NCBI GenBank assembly: GCA_947166305.1
Contig: CAMVDV010000001.1
Coordinates: 1 to 64,000 of the forward strand
From: an uncultured Prevotellaceae bacterium
Lineage (GTDB): Bacteria > Bacteroidota > Bacteroidia > Bacteroidales > Bacteroidaceae
Reading direction: 5' to 3'
Length of the DNA stretch: 64,000 nt
In this document: positions 10,056 to 25,455 of the stretch, in pieces
Position numbering within the stretch: position 1 is the first letter of the stretch
Layout of the letters: every line of letters begins with the position of its first letter
The notes under the pieces: generated by a model
Seen by the model: only the letters and a program-made list of their open reading frames with translations
The model's database searches: none
What the model was told of the DNA's origin: nothing
Made by a program: the position numbers and the translations under genes

Positions 10056-13000
10056 ATGAGGATCAAGAATTTTACTCTTATGCTGATGGCAGTCCTCTTT
10101 TCGGCAGTAGGCTTTGCACAGAAGTCTTTCTCCGTTCAGAAGGACATTGCCTTCAATCGTCAGACTAAGGTCCAGACGAAGTGGGTGAAGCAGAACAAGA
10201 TTGGTTCTGCCTTTGCCGTGAATGCGAAGGGCACCTCTTCGCAGAGTGCCTCCACTGGTCGTGCCAATGCACGCGCCAAGGCTGCTGAGGTTGTCACACC
10301 TCCTGCAAGCGGTGATGTCGAGTACTACACCCTGACTGCCACTGCTTCTTATGGTCAGACCCAGAACGAAAGCGTTACCCGCCAGATTAAAATTGTCTGG
10401 GACGCTGACGACGAGGACGTTGTTTACATCCAGGGCTTGAGCTACTATATGCCCAACTCCTTTGTGATGGGTATGTTCAACAAGACAGGCGACCAGGTCA
10501 TCTTCTCTGCCGGTCAGTATATGGGCAATCCCGGTGTTGACCTTTATTTTGGCGGCTATGGTGATGGCACAGCATTGACGGACGTTGTTGCTGACTTCGA
10601 CGAAAAGGAAAGCAGCTTCACTTTCTCTGATGCAATTTTGGATAACGGCGACCCCTCAAAAATTGGTTTCTATGCTTATATGCAGAACGTAACCATCGTT
10701 CCTTTGAATGGTGAGCCCGAGATTCCCGTTGAGATTCCAAGCGACTTGGAGTATGAGAAGTATGCTTTCACGGCATATGATTACTTTGACGAAGTTGATG
10801 TTTCAGGCAACGTAAACATCGGCATCTATGGTGAAGAGGTTTATATCCAGGGTATGTCAAACGACTATCCAGAAGCATGGATTAAGGGTACGTTCGAGAA
10901 TGACTCCACCGTGGTGTTCCCCTCTGGTCAGTTACTGTCAACAGAAGAGAGTCTCTACTTTGTTGCTATCAACGATAACTTCGACGTTGTTGACCAATAC
11001 ACTCTGATTTATGATGCAAAGACCGGTGTCTTCGAGGAAGGTCCTGAGGCTCCGATAATCAATTCTTATAAGGATAAGATAGATCGTTCAGTATGGCAGT
11101 TCTGCTATGGCTATGAATTCTTACCTATAGCAGATGGTGCAGCCGTTCCTGGAGTTTCTGCTATCTCTTCAATGAACTACAAGGTGACGGGCGACGATGT
11201 CCTCGAGTTTGCACTTGCCAAAGTGAATGATGAAAGTACAATGGGCTTGGTTGAGGAGAAGATTTCCTACAAGCTCTGGTACGTCACTGCAGAAGGCGAC
11301 ACGCTTGCTGCTAAGTTCACGTCGGCCGATTATCCTGCTCTCACAGAGGACATGGAGGAGATTCCTTCCACCTTCACCGATGGCTCGTACATCAAGAGTG
11401 GCGCACTCGCCATCAACATGGAGAATCACGCCACTTGGAAGTCTGTAGGCATCCAGTGCATATATTATGGTGGCGAGGAGCGCAACGAAGGCGCGATAGC
11501 TTGGTACACTCCCAGATGGCCTTTCAAAGTCACTCTGCCCGAAGGTCTGACTGTGACTGAGCACGACTTCGTCGGTGCAAATAATAGAACCGGTGCTGCC
11601 ATTAACAGAGTTGTCGGCGTTGCCTTCGACGGCGACGATATGTACATCCGTGGCCTTGGTTCTATGGACGAAACTGCATGGGTGAAGGGCACGAAGAATG
11701 CCACCGGCGACTACGTCTTCCCCGCAGGTCAGGATCTTGGTCTTTACCACGACGAAGACCGTCTCTTCTTCATTGGCTATGCAGACAGCAAGGTGACGGA
11801 CGCCGTGCTGACGGTTGATGCTGCCAACGGTCAGTATGTGTTCACTACAGGCATCATAGAGAATGCCGACTACACAGACAAGTTATATACGTTGCTCAAT
11901 ATGGCTTCCGGTGCTACCATCAGCATTGCTGAGAGCGTGCCCGAAGTGCCCACAGTGGTTGAGGTTCCCGAAGGACTGCAGACAGAGAGCTGGATATTCT
12001 CCGGCACTGACTACTTTGATAAAAAGCAGGCTGCCCGCAGCGTGAAGGTTGGCTTCGATGGCGACGACGTCTATGTGCAGGGCATTTCTGCTGAAGTGCC
12101 TGCTGCATGGATTAAGGGTACGTTGGACGGCGACCAGCTGACCTTCAAGTCAGGTCAGTTCCTTGGCGGTGCCGACTCCCTCTTCTTCATCGGCTACAAC
12201 TTGAACTCTGGCATCAGCGACTATGTGATGACGTACGACGAGGAGGCTGGCAAGTTCACCAACGATGACGCCAACAGCTTGCTTGGCTCCAATGCATACA
12301 AGGACAAGGTTCAGGCATCTGTGTATGAGTTCTACTACACCACGAAGATTGCCAAGATTATGGAGCGCGCAGCTACTCCTTCCGTTCCTTCTGTCACCAG
12401 AATGGGCTATACTGACAACGGCAATATCGTCGAGTTCAACATTCCTCTCCTCGACACCAACGCTGAGGGTCTGGTTGACAGCCTTGTTTCCTACAAGCTC
12501 TACTACGACGAGGGCGACGGCGAGGCTAAGGAAATCACCTTCACCACCGACCTCTACACTAAGCTGACCGAGGACATGACTGTCGTTCCTTACGGCTTCA
12601 CCGATAATTACGACTTCGATGCAACATCTGTATATCTGAACATGGACGACAGCGCTTGGAAGCGCATCGGCATCCAGAGCATCTATGCAGGCGGCGGCGA
12701 GACCAATGCTTCCGAAATAGGCTGGTACACTCCCACACGTCCCACAACAACCGAGCTGCCCGAAGGTGCTGAGGTCAATTACTATGTCTTCTCCGGCACT
12801 GACAGCGATGGCGCATTCCAGAGGGGCGTCAAGGTGGCTAAGGTGGACAACGACATCTACATCCAGGGCGCTGCCACAGTTGATGGCGAGTCGTGGATTA
12901 AGGGTACGAAGAGTGCAGATACTGATGTCTACACCTTCCCGAAGGGCCAGTTCCTCGGTGTCTTCCAGAACGCGCGCGTCCGCTATAACATCTTCCTGTT

Positions 13001-14141
13001 GGGCTACAACAGCACCCTCGGCGTGATGGATGTCAGGATGAAATACTATGCCGACGGCGACTCGCTCGTCACTTCGTGCATCATCGTCGAGAATGCCAAC
13101 TACACGGACAGCCGCTACGCCTACAACAACATCCAGGCCGGTGCAGTCATCAAGCCTGTCGACATGGCTCGTGCTGCCACTCCTGCCACTCCTAATGTCA
13201 AGAACATCCGCTACACCGTTTATGGCAATGTGGCTGAGATGAACATTCCTGTCACAGACGTAGAAGGTCTGCCCATCGACGAGGCTAAGCTCTCCTACAA
13301 GTTCTACTACGACGAGGGCGACGGCGAGGCTAAGGAAGTCACCTTCACCACCGATCTCTACGAGTACCTCAATGAGAATATGACTGTCGTTCCTTACGGC
13401 TTCCTCGACGACACCGATACAGATGGCAATCCCGTTGCCTTCGACTTCTTTGTGGACAAGGTTTACTTGAACATGCAAATCAATGGCTGGAAGCGCATTG
13501 GCATGCAGAGCATCTACACTGGTGGCGACGAGACCAATGTCTCTGAAATCGGTTGGTACGACATTGTTCATCCTCAGCTTGTCAGCCTGCCCGAGGACGC
13601 AGAGGTGGAGACCTACGGCTTCATCGGCAAGACAATCACCTCTACCGAAGTCACCAAGGGCGGCCTGAAGGTTGCCAAGGTGGGCGACGACGTCTATGTT
13701 CAGGGCATCGGCACTGTCGATACCGACACATGGATTAAGGGTACGAACGACGGCAGCAACACCTACACCTTCGCCAATGGCCAGTATCTCGGCACCATGA
13801 CGGAGGAGTACGAGGACGCGACATACTACAATATGCTCTTCCTCATGGGTAATACCGGCTCCGCCGTGACCAACCTCACCATGACCTACGACCCAGAGAC
13901 GGGCATCTTCACCACGACAAACTATCTCGTGGAGAACGCCGACTACACCGACAAGATGTACTACAACGCAGTGTTCGCACCCGGTGCACAGCTTGTTCCT
14001 GCAAGCAGTCCCGACGCTATTGCCGAAATCAATGCTGAGACCGATGCTGATGCCGTTCGCTTCAACATCGCAGGCCAGCGCGTAGGCAAGAACTACAAGG
14101 GCATCGTAGTCGAGAAGGGTCGCAAGACTCTCCGCAAGTAA
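10056..14141 (+). CDS. large secreted protein with about six internal repeat modules and C-terminal sorting-like tail
   Basis: Signal peptide; repeated WIKGT...F..GQ(F/Y)LG modules; three FN3-like modules ending YYDEGDGEAKEVTFTTDLY; C-term NIAGQRVGKNYKGIVVEKGRKTL. Confidence 0.7.
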   Translation: MRIKNFTLMLMAVLFSAVGFAQKSFSVQKDIAFNRQTKVQTKWVKQNKIGSAFAVNAKGTSSQSASTGRANARAKAAEVVTPPASGDVEYYTLTATASYGQTQNESVTRQIKIVWDADDEDVVYIQGLSYYMPNSFVMGMFNKTGDQVIFSAGQYMGNPGVDLYFGGYGDGTALTDVVADFDEKESSFTFSDAILDNGDPSKIGFYAYMQNVTIVPLNGEPEIPVEIPSDLEYEKYAFTAYDYFDEVDVSGNVNIGIYGEEVYIQGMSNDYPEAWIKGTFENDSTVVFPSGQLLSTEESLYFVAINDNFDVVDQYTLIYDAKTGVFEEGPEAPIINSYKDKIDRSVWQFCYGYEFLPIADGAAVPGVSAISSMNYKVTGDDVLEFALAKVNDESTMGLVEEKISYKLWYVTAEGDTLAAKFTSADYPALTEDMEEIPSTFTDGSYIKSGALAINMENHATWKSVGIQCIYYGGEERNEGAIAWYTPRWPFKVTLPEGLTVTEHDFVGANNRTGAAINRVVGVAFDGDDMYIRGLGSMDETAWVKGTKNATGDYVFPAGQDLGLYHDEDRLFFIGYADSKVTDAVLTVDAANGQYVFTTGIIENADYTDKLYTLLNMASGATISIAESVPEVPTVVEVPEGLQTESWIFSGTDYFDKKQAARSVKVGFDGDDVYVQGISAEVPAAWIKGTLDGDQLTFKSGQFLGGADSLFFIGYNLNSGISDYVMTYDEEAGKFTNDDANSLLGSNAYKDKVQASVYEFYYTTKIAKIMERAATPSVPSVTRMGYTDNGNIVEFNIPLLDTNAEGLVDSLVSYKLYYDEGDGEAKEITFTTDLYTKLTEDMTVVPYGFTDNYDFDATSVYLNMDDSAWKRIGIQSIYAGGGETNASEIGWYTPTRPTTTELPEGAEVNYYVFSGTDSDGAFQRGVKVAKVDNDIYIQGAATVDGESWIKGTKSADTDVYTFPKGQFLGVFQNARVRYNIFLLGYNSTLGVMDVRMKYYADGDSLVTSCIIVENANYTDSRYAYNNIQAGAVIKPVDMARAATPATPNVKNIRYTVYGNVAEMNIPVTDVEGLPIDEAKLSYKFYYDEGDGEAKEVTFTTDLYEYLNENMTVVPYGFLDDTDTDGNPVAFDFFVDKVYLNMQINGWKRIGMQSIYTGGDETNVSEIGWYDIVHPQLVSLPEDAEVETYGFIGKTITSTEVTKGGLKVAKVGDDVYVQGIGTVDTDTWIKGTNDGSNTYTFANGQYLGTMTEEYEDATYYNMLFLMGNTGSAVTNLTMTYDPETGIFTTTNYLVENADYTDKMYYNAVFAPGAQLVPASSPDAIAEINAETDADAVRFNIAGQRVGKNYKGIVVEKGRKTLRK

Positions 14142-14213: not shown

Positions 14214-14312
14214 TTTCTATACTGCCTGCAAAGGCTGGCTCTGCCTGTATGCTTCCTGCGAACGAACGACGTCCCTAAACCCACAGTCTGCGAGAACCTT
14301 CAAAACTACTCG

Positions 14313-14420
14313 TGTTTAGTTCGCCAACTAACCGTGTTTAGTTCGTCAACTAAGCGTGTTTAGTTTCCCAACTAAGCGTGTTTAGTTCACCAATTAACCG
14401 TGTTAAGTTCGCCATCCATG
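14313..14420. repeat. 22-nt tandem array (family A), ~5 units
   Basis: Units TGTTTAGTTCGCCAACTAACCG at 14313,14335,14357,14379,14401; each has TTAGTT-n4-AACTAA dyad. Confidence 0.95.
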
Positions 14421-14533
14421 TAGGGACGCGCCGTGGCGCGTCCGTGTATTCAACGCCGTGGCGGCGTACGATAACAGGCCGAATAGCGTATGATAATAGG
14501 CCGAATTGCGGACGCGCCACGGCGCGTCCCTAC
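14420..14533. repeat. BIME-like cassette: two inverted REPs with 64-nt spacer
   Basis: REP GTAGGGACGCGCCGTGGCGCGTCCG (14420-14444) and inverse copy 14509-14533. Confidence 0.9.
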
Positions 14534-14654
14534 AGGCGATTGTGTCAATTCCCTTATATAAAATGGAATTCCTTTATTCTGCCGACCTATAATTGGGGAT
14601 TTCTTTATAAATTTGCATAACAATCTAATATGGTGCGTCCCTGCAATCAAACAA

Positions 14655-15206
14655 ATGGAAAACTCAACACTTCCCAAACGTAAGTCACCCAGGGCTGCTT
14701 GGCTCGACTATAACGACGGGAACTATTTTGTGACCGTATGCACCAAGGACAAGGTGCATTACTTTGGAGAGGTGGTTGAGGACACAATGCGTTTCACGCC
14801 AATTGGTACCTTCCTCGATAACGAACTTCGCAGCAATGCCTTTCATCACCCGGATGTCCTTGTCCGTTGCTTCGTGGTTATGCCGAATCATTTTCATGCA
14901 ATTGTGAAAGTCACATCTGAGGTGTCACCGTGCAATGCGGACGCGCCACGGCGCGTCCCTACAAGGGGGGAACGTCTCTTGATACGAGTTGGGGCGAACT
15001 GTCAGTGTGCCAACACGGTACTTTCGTCGTTCATTGGTCAGCTAAAAGGAGCAGTGACTCGTTTTGCACGAAGGGAAGCCCTGGCTTTTGCATGGCAGCC
15101 ACGCTATCATGACCATTTGATTCGCGGCCCGCACGATGGGAACAGAATTGCCGAATACATTGAGCATAACGTAATGAATTGGGCGACGGACTGCTTTCGC
15201 CTGTAG
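14655..15206 (+). CDS. REP-associated tyrosine transposase (RAYT; Y1/IS200-like)
   Basis: YNDGNYFVTVCTKD, HUH motif VMPNHFHAIVKV, catalytic-Tyr region QPRYHDHLIR, flanked by REP/BIME elements. Confidence 0.9.
   Translation: MENSTLPKRKSPRAAWLDYNDGNYFVTVCTKDKVHYFGEVVEDTMRFTPIGTFLDNELRSNAFHHPDVLVRCFVVMPNHFHAIVKVTSEVSPCNADAPRRVPTRGERLLIRVGANCQCANTVLSSFIGQLKGAVTRFARREALAFAWQPRYHDHLIRGPHDGNRIAEYIEHNVMNWATDCFRL
14938..14962 (-). repeat. REP copy inside the RAYT coding sequence
   Basis: CGGACGCGCCACGGCGCGTCCCTAC; read in frame as ADAPRRVPT. Confidence 0.95.
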
Positions 15207-15316
15207 GGACGCGCCGTGGCGCGTCCGCAATTCGGCCTGTTTTCATTCGCTCTTCGCTCTTTTATCGTTCTTCGCCACGGCGTTGAAAATACGGACGCGC
15301 CACGGCGCGTCCCTAC
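15203..15316. repeat. BIME-like cassette, inverted copy of 14420-14533
   Basis: REP+ 15203-15227 and REP- 15292-15316; reverse complement of spacer matches the left spacer (CAACGCCGTGGCG..ACGATAA..AGGCCGAATTG). Confidence 0.9.
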
Positions 15317-15404
15317 ATGGGTTCCGAGGTGCGTCCATACACAGCGTGAGTGTGGTTGCTATTCGTCGATATGTTTGTTCGTTGTTTCTTCGGTGCATAA
15401 CAAC

Positions 15405-15465: not shown

Positions 15466-17619
15466 TTAGAAGAAGATGTAGCGTTTGTCGCTGATGTCAG
15501 CTTTCTGCAGGAGCTCGTTGATGGCTCCCGAAACGTTGCGGCCGATGGTCTGCTGCAGTCTCTGCTCTTCCTGCTTCTGGTCGAACTTCACGTCGGTCTT
15601 CTTCTGGTCGAGCACCTGATATGCATAGACGGCAGACTTGCCCTTGACGCCTGTCTTGAAGTCGCCCTTCTTGGCCTTGCTTACGGAGCCGCTCAGTGCA
15701 GGCTCGCTGGCGCCAATCTTCGAAACGAAGGCGTTGCCCATGAAGGTGACGTGCTTGATGGTGTCGGTGACGGCACCTTCTATCTTGGCTACAGATGCAA
15801 TGTCCTTGGCGTTCTTCAGCTTGTCCATCAGCATGGCAGCCTTCTTGTCCTTCATCACTTCGCCGGTCAGGAAGGTGCGAATCTGTTCGTCGTCCCAAGG
15901 CAGGTAGCCTTTCTTGTGGATGCCGGTGAGCATGATGACGAGCATGTGGTCGTTGTCGCCGCACTCATAGAGGGGAGAAACGTCGCCCACCTTTGTCTTC
16001 TCGTTGAATATCCAGCGCAGAGCGTCGCGAGTGCTGCGTACGTTCACCACGTTGTGCTCGGTGCAACTCATATTGTTGCGTGTCTGCACGGTGTAGCCGG
16101 CCTGTGCTGCGTTGGCTTCGATGTCCTCGCTCTTGGCATTGCCTGCCAGGAAGCTGCTGAAGTCGTTGTATGCCTTGCCGTAGGTTTCCTTGCTGAAGTC
16201 CATGGCGCGCTTGATGACAGCCACGTCATACTTCGTGATGAAGTTCTTGCGGTCGGTGACCTGAGCGATGATGACACCCTGGCCGTCGAGCACAATCTTG
16301 TTGTAGCCGCCCACGGCAGCATTGGTGATGGTGCTCAGGAACTTCCGGTTGTTCTCGTCTATCGTCTGACCTTCATACTGGCTGCTCGTAATCCATGTCT
16401 TTGTGGCGGGCTGGTCGTACTTCTTGGCGATGGTGTCGAAGTTTGCGCCTGTTGCAAGAGCGTTCATGATGCTGTCGGCAGTCTTCTCGATGGCAGCCAT
16501 GTCCTTGCCTGGAGCGGCAATCTGGCGAACCTCAACTGAGTCGGGCAGCGTGACCTTGTTGATGAGGCGAACTACGTTGACCGTGTTGTCGTGGTCGTGA
16601 ACAAAGGGACCTACCTGCGAGCCGATGCTCATCGAGTCGAGCTTCTCGGCAATGTCGTGAGGCAGAGACTTAGCGCTGACGGGCAGCGGGCTGTAAGCTA
16701 CCTGACTTGCAGCTTCGCGGACAGTCTTGGCAGGGTCGGCACCTTCGGAGAGAGCCTGTGCATAGCCTTCCATCTCCTTCTGGAGGTTGGCCTTGTCAGC
16801 ATCGCTGGCAGTCACCTTGATGTCGATGTATTTGATGTCGCGTGTCTCCTCGTTGGTGCGGAACATCTCCTTCATCTCTTCGTACTTTGCCTTGAGCTCG
16901 CTGTCTTCCACCTTCACGTCGTCGTCCTTGATGCTGGAGTAGGGGAGTGCAGCCATGAGGATGTCCGTCTCGTTGGTGCGACCTTCGTAGCTTGCCTTGG
17001 CAGCAACGGGATTGCTGACCATGAGGCCGCTCAGCAGAGCCTGATACTTCTCGTTGAGCGTCTGGCGGCGAATTGTCTTCTCGATGAACTTCCAGTAGTT
17101 GTTCATCTGCTGGTACTGCTCCTTCACCTCGTTGCCGAGCTGGGGATTGGTCATCACCTCATTGTACTGGTTGAGGAACTGCTTGAGTGCGTTGACGTCG
17201 AATTTGCCCTGAGCGGTGCGGAAGGGAGTCTGTGCGAGCAGCGGACTGCGACCGTTGTTGATGATGTCCTGCATCTCAGCATCGGTGACGTTGAGTCCGA
17301 GTTTCTCGCACTCGTGCTCCATGAGCTTGTCGTTGACGAGCGTCTGCCACACCTGGTCGCGCATCATCGAGAGCTGGTCGTCGGAGAGAGAGCTGATGCC
17401 TTGCGTGAACTTCACGACGTCGGTGTACTCCTCGACCTGTGTGTTGAACTCTTGTACGTTGATTTTGTCTCCGTAGATTTTGCCGACGCGCTGGTGACGC
17501 TCTGTCTGTGTGTAGGAAAGAGAGCGCACGAACTCCTCGGCAATGAATGCAAACAGAGCAAGACCGACCGTTGCGATGAGAATCTTGCCTCTGTTGCGGA
17601 TTTTTTGTAAAGTTGCCAT
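15466..17619 (-). CDS. SurA/PpiD-like peptidylprolyl isomerase, N-terminal membrane anchor
   Basis: MATLQKIRNRGKILIATVGLALFAFIAEEFV..., SurA_N-like and parvulin-like regions. Confidence 0.85.
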   Translation of the reverse strand: MATLQKIRNRGKILIATVGLALFAFIAEEFVRSLSYTQTERHQRVGKIYGDKINVQEFNTQVEEYTDVVKFTQGISSLSDDQLSMMRDQVWQTLVNDKLMEHECEKLGLNVTDAEMQDIINNGRSPLLAQTPFRTAQGKFDVNALKQFLNQYNEVMTNPQLGNEVKEQYQQMNNYWKFIEKTIRRQTLNEKYQALLSGLMVSNPVAAKASYEGRTNETDILMAALPYSSIKDDDVKVEDSELKAKYEEMKEMFRTNEETRDIKYIDIKVTASDADKANLQKEMEGYAQALSEGADPAKTVREAASQVAYSPLPVSAKSLPHDIAEKLDSMSIGSQVGPFVHDHDNTVNVVRLINKVTLPDSVEVRQIAAPGKDMAAIEKTADSIMNALATGANFDTIAKKYDQPATKTWITSSQYEGQTIDENNRKFLSTITNAAVGGYNKIVLDGQGVIIAQVTDRKNFITKYDVAVIKRAMDFSKETYGKAYNDFSSFLAGNAKSEDIEANAAQAGYTVQTRNNMSCTEHNVVNVRSTRDALRWIFNEKTKVGDVSPLYECGDNDHMLVIMLTGIHKKGYLPWDDEQIRTFLTGEVMKDKKAAMLMDKLKNAKDIASVAKIEGAVTDTIKHVTFMGNAFVSKIGASEPALSGSVSKAKKGDFKTGVKGKSAVYAYQVLDQKKTDVKFDQKQEEQRLQQTIGRNVSGAINELLQKADISDKRYIFF

Positions 17620-25111: not shown

Positions 25112-25136
25112 GTAGGGACGCGCCGTGGCGCGTCCG
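25112..25136 (+). repeat. REP element
   Basis: GTAGGGACGCGCCGTGGCGCGTCCG. Confidence 0.95.
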
Positions 25137-25177
25137 CAAGCAGGCATAGCTGAGCATCGAAAGCCTTCAGTCGCCCT

Positions 25178-25202
25178 GTAGGGACGCGCCGTGGCGCGTC
25201 CG
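25178..25202 (+). repeat. REP element
   Basis: GTAGGGACGCGCCGTGGCGCGTCCG. Confidence 0.95.
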
Positions 25203-25260
25203 CAAACAGGGATTGTCGCGTCCGCAAGCATCGTGTTGCCCAACACCCTACAGGGTTTTC

Positions 25261-25430
25261 ATTGCAGCATCATGACCGTGCAATTGCAACATCATGACCA
25301 TGCAATTGCAGCATCATGACCATGCAAAGGATGCAGCATGCCGTGTCGGACAATTCGGTGTGCCGTGTCGGACAATTCGGTGTGCCGTGCCGTGACAAAT
25401 TCCGTTTTCGGACGTGTAAAACTCCGTTTG
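25261..25430. repeat. 22-nt tandem array (family D plus a second 22-nt unit type)
   Basis: ATTGCARCATCATGACCRTGCA x3 (25261-25326); GTGTCGGACAATTCGGTGTGCC x2 (25343-25386); two diverged 22-mers 25387-25430. Confidence 0.9.
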
Positions 25431-25455
25431 CGGACGCGCCACGGCGCGTCCCTAC
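25431..25455 (-). repeat. REP element
   Basis: CGGACGCGCCACGGCGCGTCCCTAC. Confidence 0.95.

Follow-up and report, generated by a model that had tools for sequence, protein, structure and literature searches.

A RAYT (TnpA-REP) gene is bracketed by two inverted REP pairs in the genome of an uncultured Prevotellaceae bacterium. This arrangement raises the question of what is mobile at the locus: the gene together with its bracketing repeats, or only the REPs. A second question is raised by a fifth REP, which lies within the gene itself. The window, as the term is used here, is the whole 64,000-nucleotide stretch of DNA that was analyzed; it belongs to a 2.94-Mb draft assembly of 71 contigs that is 84% complete.

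The best explanation of the whole, to which we assign a probability of about 0.85, is that the locus is a group 4 REPtron, in which the RAYT drives the spread of REPs, the inner REP is a member of the mobile REP population, and the block itself does not appear to move as one. Group 4 systems with an in-gene REP have already been described, and the locus exemplifies this known system. Its addition is the intragenic REP and the concerted change of that REP with those of the genome. The wider question is the spread of REPs and the persistence of RAYTs, for which the locus offers a single RAYT with a simple, nearly uniform REP, a copy of that REP inside the gene, and a sister species whose corresponding site lacks a RAYT.

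Layout of the locus

The RAYT gene (14655..15206, + strand) encodes 183 amino acids from an ATG at 14655, including the HUH motif in MPNHFHAI, a WQ motif, and the catalytic tyrosine (Tyr168) in YIEHN. These motifs bear out the earlier note on this DNA, which placed a Y1-type RAYT gene between the REP pairs. The neighbors are a gene for a 1361-amino acid repeat protein on the left (10056..14141, + strand) and, on the right, a gene for a PpiD/SurA-like protein (15466..17619, − strand); both served as synteny markers. At this locus, the nearest named relatives are metagenome genomes of Prevotella and Bacteroidaceae.

The left REP pair (14420..14533) is composed of REPs at 14420–14443 (+) and 14510–14533 (−), with their GTAG feet pointing outward. 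The right pair (15203..15316), with REPs at 15203–15226 (+) and 15293–15316 (−), is the left pair inverted. All four flanking REPs are identical, with the sequence GTAGGGACGCGCCGTGGCGCGTCC, and form two outward-footed pairs around the RAYT. The two pairs had been described as inverted copies of equal length, and this description holds: each is 114 nt, the REP arms do not differ, and identity between the two spacers is 82% (versus 0.23–0.59 to those of ten other REP pairs in the same genome). Each spacer is 66 nt between 24-nt REPs, or 64 nt if the REPs are taken to include the conserved G that follows; that of the left pair contains a 22-nt tandem duplication. The inverted arms as a whole (14409–14539 and 15197–15327) extend over 131 nt and are 89% complementary. 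As part of the best explanation, the two pairs probably have one common origin by inverted duplication.

The stop codon of the RAYT gene (TAG, 15204–15206) lies within a REP, being part of the GTAG foot of the one at 15203–15226. A downstream REP whose GTAG foot forms the RAYT stop codon is seen at four other loci as well (L076, L025, L030, and L035), as at position 15203 of the window.

The earlier note further held that CCATG and CATGG extend the symmetry beyond the REPs. This extension is explained by the bases that usually flank a REP. In a sample of 43 REPs from the window and other parts of the genome, GTAG is preceded by C at −3 in 79%, by C or A at −2 in 77%, and by T at −1 in 79%. The idea that CCATG/CATGG marks the ends of the unit was rejected, as this flank consensus explains it.

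The RAYT protein and the REP family

Both curated models score the RAYT below their cut-offs: Pfam PF01797 (Y1_Tnp) gives 20.2 bits against a curated cut-off of 23, and NF047646 (REP_Tyr_transpos) gives 44.2 bits (E 1.7e-11) against one of 80; these cut-offs are criteria of detection and do not describe a biological trait. The relatedness is therefore carried by E-values, the match to PDB entry 4er8, and the fold. Against the PDB, a profile built from 44 homologues found 4er8 (E. coli TnpArep) as the sole sequence relative (E 3.6e-7), and Foldseek matched the AlphaFold model (pLDDT 85.5) to IS200/IS605 transposases and to 4er8. MPNHFHAI, WQ, and YI..N are invariant or nearly so in alignments of 27 and 44 sequences.

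In the 2018 classification of TnpA-Y1 proteins, subclass 2.4 (RAYT group 4) is found in Bacteroidetes and Cyanobacteria and is characterized by the motifs NH[IFV]H and WQ, by a variable insertion that follows the HUH strand, and by GT[AG]G-footed REPs; in-frame REPs within the transposase gene are a trait unique to this subclass (PMC6006769). Placed by this description, the locus appears to fit a REPtron of subclass 2.4, with small deviations. The host belongs to the Bacteroidetes, the NHFH and WQ of the RAYT agree with the subclass motifs, a tyrosine motif is present, and the variable insertion between HUH and tyrosine is matched in length (90 residues between the motifs, compared with a reported median of 88). 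GTAG-footed REPs occur both flanking the gene and in frame inside it, and the latter, being unique to the subclass, argues for this type. The deviations are in the tyrosine motif, the REP, and the arrangement. The tyrosine motif is YIEHNV in the window and mostly YIxNNV in the clade, whereas the subclass consensus, YIxNNP, is seen in distant homologues. The REP has a single GTAG foot and a stem base of G-C, G-C, and A-T (GGA/TCC), as opposed to a canonical long REP with three G-C pairs or a double-foot REP in subclass 2.4 (a descriptive trait of the REPs rather than of the protein), and the gene here is surrounded by two near-identical inverted REP pairs. An IS200/IS605 insertion sequence (TnpA subclass 1.1) was considered and rejected, as a single copy was found in the draft assembly, rather than several near-identical ones, and the motif is NHFH rather than DH[VI]H.

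The locus resembles several other systems in part. Like the E. coli REPtron (TnpAREP, PDB 4er8; group 2), it has a single-copy HUH/Tyr protein and inverted GTAG-footed REP pairs that surround the gene and are dispersed genome-wide. However, the REPs of E. coli are of three types, with imperfect stems, in-gene REPs are described for subclass 2.4 only, and E. coli TnpAREP has just 18% identity to the RAYT in the fold alignment. The RAYTs of Pseudomonas fluorescens REPINs belong to another group than this RAYT. REPINs are likewise inverted REP doublets that are dispersed as a unit and accompanied by a RAYT (PMC3116915), but the pair spacers here vary widely in length and sequence. Finally, in TIRtrons long inverted repeats bracket a RAYT-like gene (TIRYT), as they do here; the TIRs are unrelated to GTAG repeats (PMC3733652), whereas the inverted repeats here consist of REPs.

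The REP core occurs 171 times in its own genome, compared with 0 for a backwards control, and eight times in the window, where the chance expectation is 0 (100 shuffles). The oriented REP 25-mer, with at most one mismatch, occurs ~199 times in the genome, and all of the matches listed are exact. The genome-wide count that the earlier note proposed as a check thus shows REPs to be abundant (~170–200 copies in the 2.94-Mb assembly), in keeping with its reading of the locus as a REPtron, a RAYT with its own REPs. In sampled stretches, adjacent REPs often form convergent pairs with the GTAG feet outward and 46–277 nt of spacer between them; other REPs stand alone or in tandem. The exact REP core is absent from 35 of 36 other genomes of the genus, and the remaining one (G005) holds a single copy. 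REPs of related species include GTAGGGACGCGACGTGTCGCGTCC and GTAGGGACACGGCATGCCGTGTCC. The window has a second REP cluster at 25112–25455, with three REPs and two 22-bp arrays between the last two.

The RAYT has one match in the assembly, although identical copies could be collapsed in such a draft (71 contigs, 84% complete). A single full-length gene for each REP family is usual for RAYTs. Elsewhere in the genus (36 genomes searched), a full-length relative with 54% identity is present in G032 and a weak partial match in G018; no other match was found. In a Balneolaceae locus (L069), a second, near-identical partial RAYT copy lies downstream of the first.

The lone RAYT gene is predicted to encode an HUH/Tyr single-strand DNA endonuclease. 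By analogy with the scheme of REP hairpin binding and cutting published for other groups (PMC8266576), this enzyme most likely recognizes the GTAG-footed hairpin of GTAGGGACGCGCCGTGGCGCGTCC when it is single-stranded, and would cut through its tyrosine at a dinucleotide near the hairpin and then rejoin the DNA. Such activity would scatter REPs over the genome, both singly and as pairs with outward feet, the pairs then being the dispersed unit.

A REP within the RAYT gene

The fifth REP (14939..14962, − strand), overlooked earlier, is identical to the flanking four. It lies in the RAYT reading frame between MPNHFHAI and YIEHN, with its GTAG foot on the antisense strand, and codes for part of NADAPRRVPT. 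A GTAG-footed hairpin is present between the HUH and tyrosine codons in 52 of 84 homologous loci, versus 2 of 275 control stretches (random, of similar length, from elsewhere within those loci). In the closest clade, the intragenic REP occurs at one site and in one frame and orientation (antisense GTAG), and the encoded peptides follow the pattern DAxRxVPT or a similar one; in most of them a conserved ER comes after VPT. The shared site, frame, orientation, and neighboring residues are most simply read as the result of one ancestral insertion. In the structural model, residues 93–98 are the only segment with pLDDT <50 and hold the REP-encoded stretch, while the core is >90. The same loop placement was proposed from their own model by the authors who described the subclass (PMC6006769). 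The inner REP would have been inserted in an ancestor, at a place that encodes a disordered loop on the protein surface, where it appears to be tolerated while staying within the mobile REP population.

The inner REP changes in concert with the REPs of its genome and is not passively inherited. Across 13 loci of the close clade, the inner REP has an identity of 0.965 to its own flanking REPs, as compared with 0.799 after random exchange of flanks among the loci (p = 5e-5; 20,000 permutations, kinship ignored, most locus pairs having ~50% protein identity). In the stem of the inner REP, 98.3% of cells are paired (13 loci), five of the nine pairs have changed on both sides, and the covariation score exceeds those of all 500 shuffles and all slid controls. 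The residues encoded at this position vary (APRR, ATRR, AARS, AIHR, VAGH, and others) while stem pairing is kept, which argues for constraint on the nucleic acid rather than on the peptide.

Among the REP matches listed for each of seven genomes, the inner REP is in every case the most frequent. Its share of these matches is ~22 of 41 in G032, 9 of 30 in G064, and 15 of 18 in G065, and in G061 it accounts for 91 of the first 100. The remaining genomes are that of the window, G062 (for which about one-third of the matches were listed), and G066; all counts were made by eye. Taken alone, this match carries little weight, since random members of the REP population are also likely to be of the commonest type; the rough fractions multiply to ~5% for all seven genomes.

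The inner REP might instead be retained for the benefit of the RAYT, as a self-regulatory site (a DNA or mRNA hairpin) that locks the specificity of the enzyme to the REP. A hairpin kept at one coding site by compensatory changes, while the residues vary, would be expected of such a site, as would agreement with the commonest REP of each genome, although a REP drawn at random from the population would often be of the commonest type as well. This role seems possible but rather unlikely to us, because inner copies have decayed or are missing despite flanking hairpins in L026, L028, and 18 further loci (simple hairpin finder). In L028 the flanking REPs have been kept and the inner copy has decayed, and in L026 only a peptide relic is left. 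With the same simple hairpin finder, no association was found between presence of the inner REP and that of flanking hairpins (Fisher p = 0.82). We considered whether the REP system requires the inner REP; the lack of association and loci L028 and L026 speak against such a requirement.

If the inner REP is a member of the mobile population, as we prefer, its homogenization may come about by RAYT-driven exchange of REP for REP, by gene conversion or recombination, or by selection to match the enzyme. The paired stem changes that track the genomic REPs across species make exchange versus selection directly testable. In the first of these routes, the RAYT would swap REP for REP in its own gene, so that the inner copy is repeatedly replaced by the current genomic REP. 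The reading frame would stay intact because all REPs are equal in length and cut at one foot. We hold this swap to be doubtful. Were it true, the gene would always hold the current version of its own substrate. The swap would explain why site and frame stay fixed, why stem changes compensate one another, and why the inner copy agrees with the commonest genomic REP.

Possible mobility of the locus and 22-bp repeats

An empty site in a relative, which the earlier note had suggested looking for, exists in a sister species. In G005, the left neighbor (protein identity 63%) and the PpiD-like gene (85%) lie next to each other, ~560 bp apart, and this intergenic stretch contains neither RAYT nor REP. 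In G008, the gene for a PpiD-like protein (87% identical) is followed by a 22-bp array resembling that at 14304–14414, and no RAYT or REP was found beside them. The RAYT-free site in relatives means that the RAYT was either gained here or lost there.

The earlier note took the locus for a complete RAYT-BIME unit with BIMEs that act like terminal inverted structures. Were it an IS-like mobile unit, the RAYT and the two inverted REP pairs would move together, with the pairs as terminal inverted repeats. The flanking pairs are indeed inverted copies with a closer resemblance than other REP pairs show, the sister species has an empty site, and in G032 the genes around the RAYT relative are different. 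The empty site, however, is equally well accounted for by horizontal gain or by loss in relatives, and the outer symmetry by the REP flank consensus. A search for more RAYT copies in the assembly found none, so that a single RAYT is set against ~170–200 REPs, and it is REPs and REP pairs that are dispersed. Furthermore, tnpA-REP genes are reported to show no evidence of mobility (PMC8266576). We consider movement of the block as a unit improbable.

Least credible, and largely refuted, is that the inner REP is vertically inherited coding sequence whose likeness to the flanks is a mere relic: the frame, orientation, and neighboring residues (VPT..ER) common to the clade do point to one ancestral insertion, but the inner REP varies between species in step with its local flanks and with paired stem changes, and shuffled flanks never attain the observed match.

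Directly upstream of the left REP pair is an array of five 22-bp repeats (14304..14414, + strand). Its palindromic unit, TTTAGTTNNNCAACTAANCGTG, also occurs genome-wide, often near REPs, with 50 matches on one strand and 59 on the other (at most two mismatches; the strands partly overlap), and related copies exist in G005, G008, and G012. The array is probably independent of the REPtron, as the similar array in G008 stands without RAYT or REPs.

Tandem arrays of period 22, with differing unit sequences, recur through the window (at 1636, 14304, 14464, 18338, 25261, 25339, 32472, 33088, 39954, 42223, 44252, 48887, 54733, 54809, and 62677). After de-duplication, 14 of the 31 arrays in the window have this period. 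In 100 kb from elsewhere in the same genome, the count is 20 of 41, with an additional four of period 44. Only five arrays of period 22 occur in 700 kb of mostly other Bacteroidota. Autocorrelation of non-ORF sequence peaks at lags of 22, 44, and 66 in this genome, is weak at 21 and 22 in the sister species, and has no such peaks elsewhere. A search of the literature on 22-bp repeats found nothing relevant. Spacers of REP pairs are in some cases lengthened by tandem duplications of 22 or 44 bp (14464–14514 in the window, 1033–1258 in L105, and 988–1125 in L116), and the process that generates the 22-bp repeats thus seems to affect REP pairs too.
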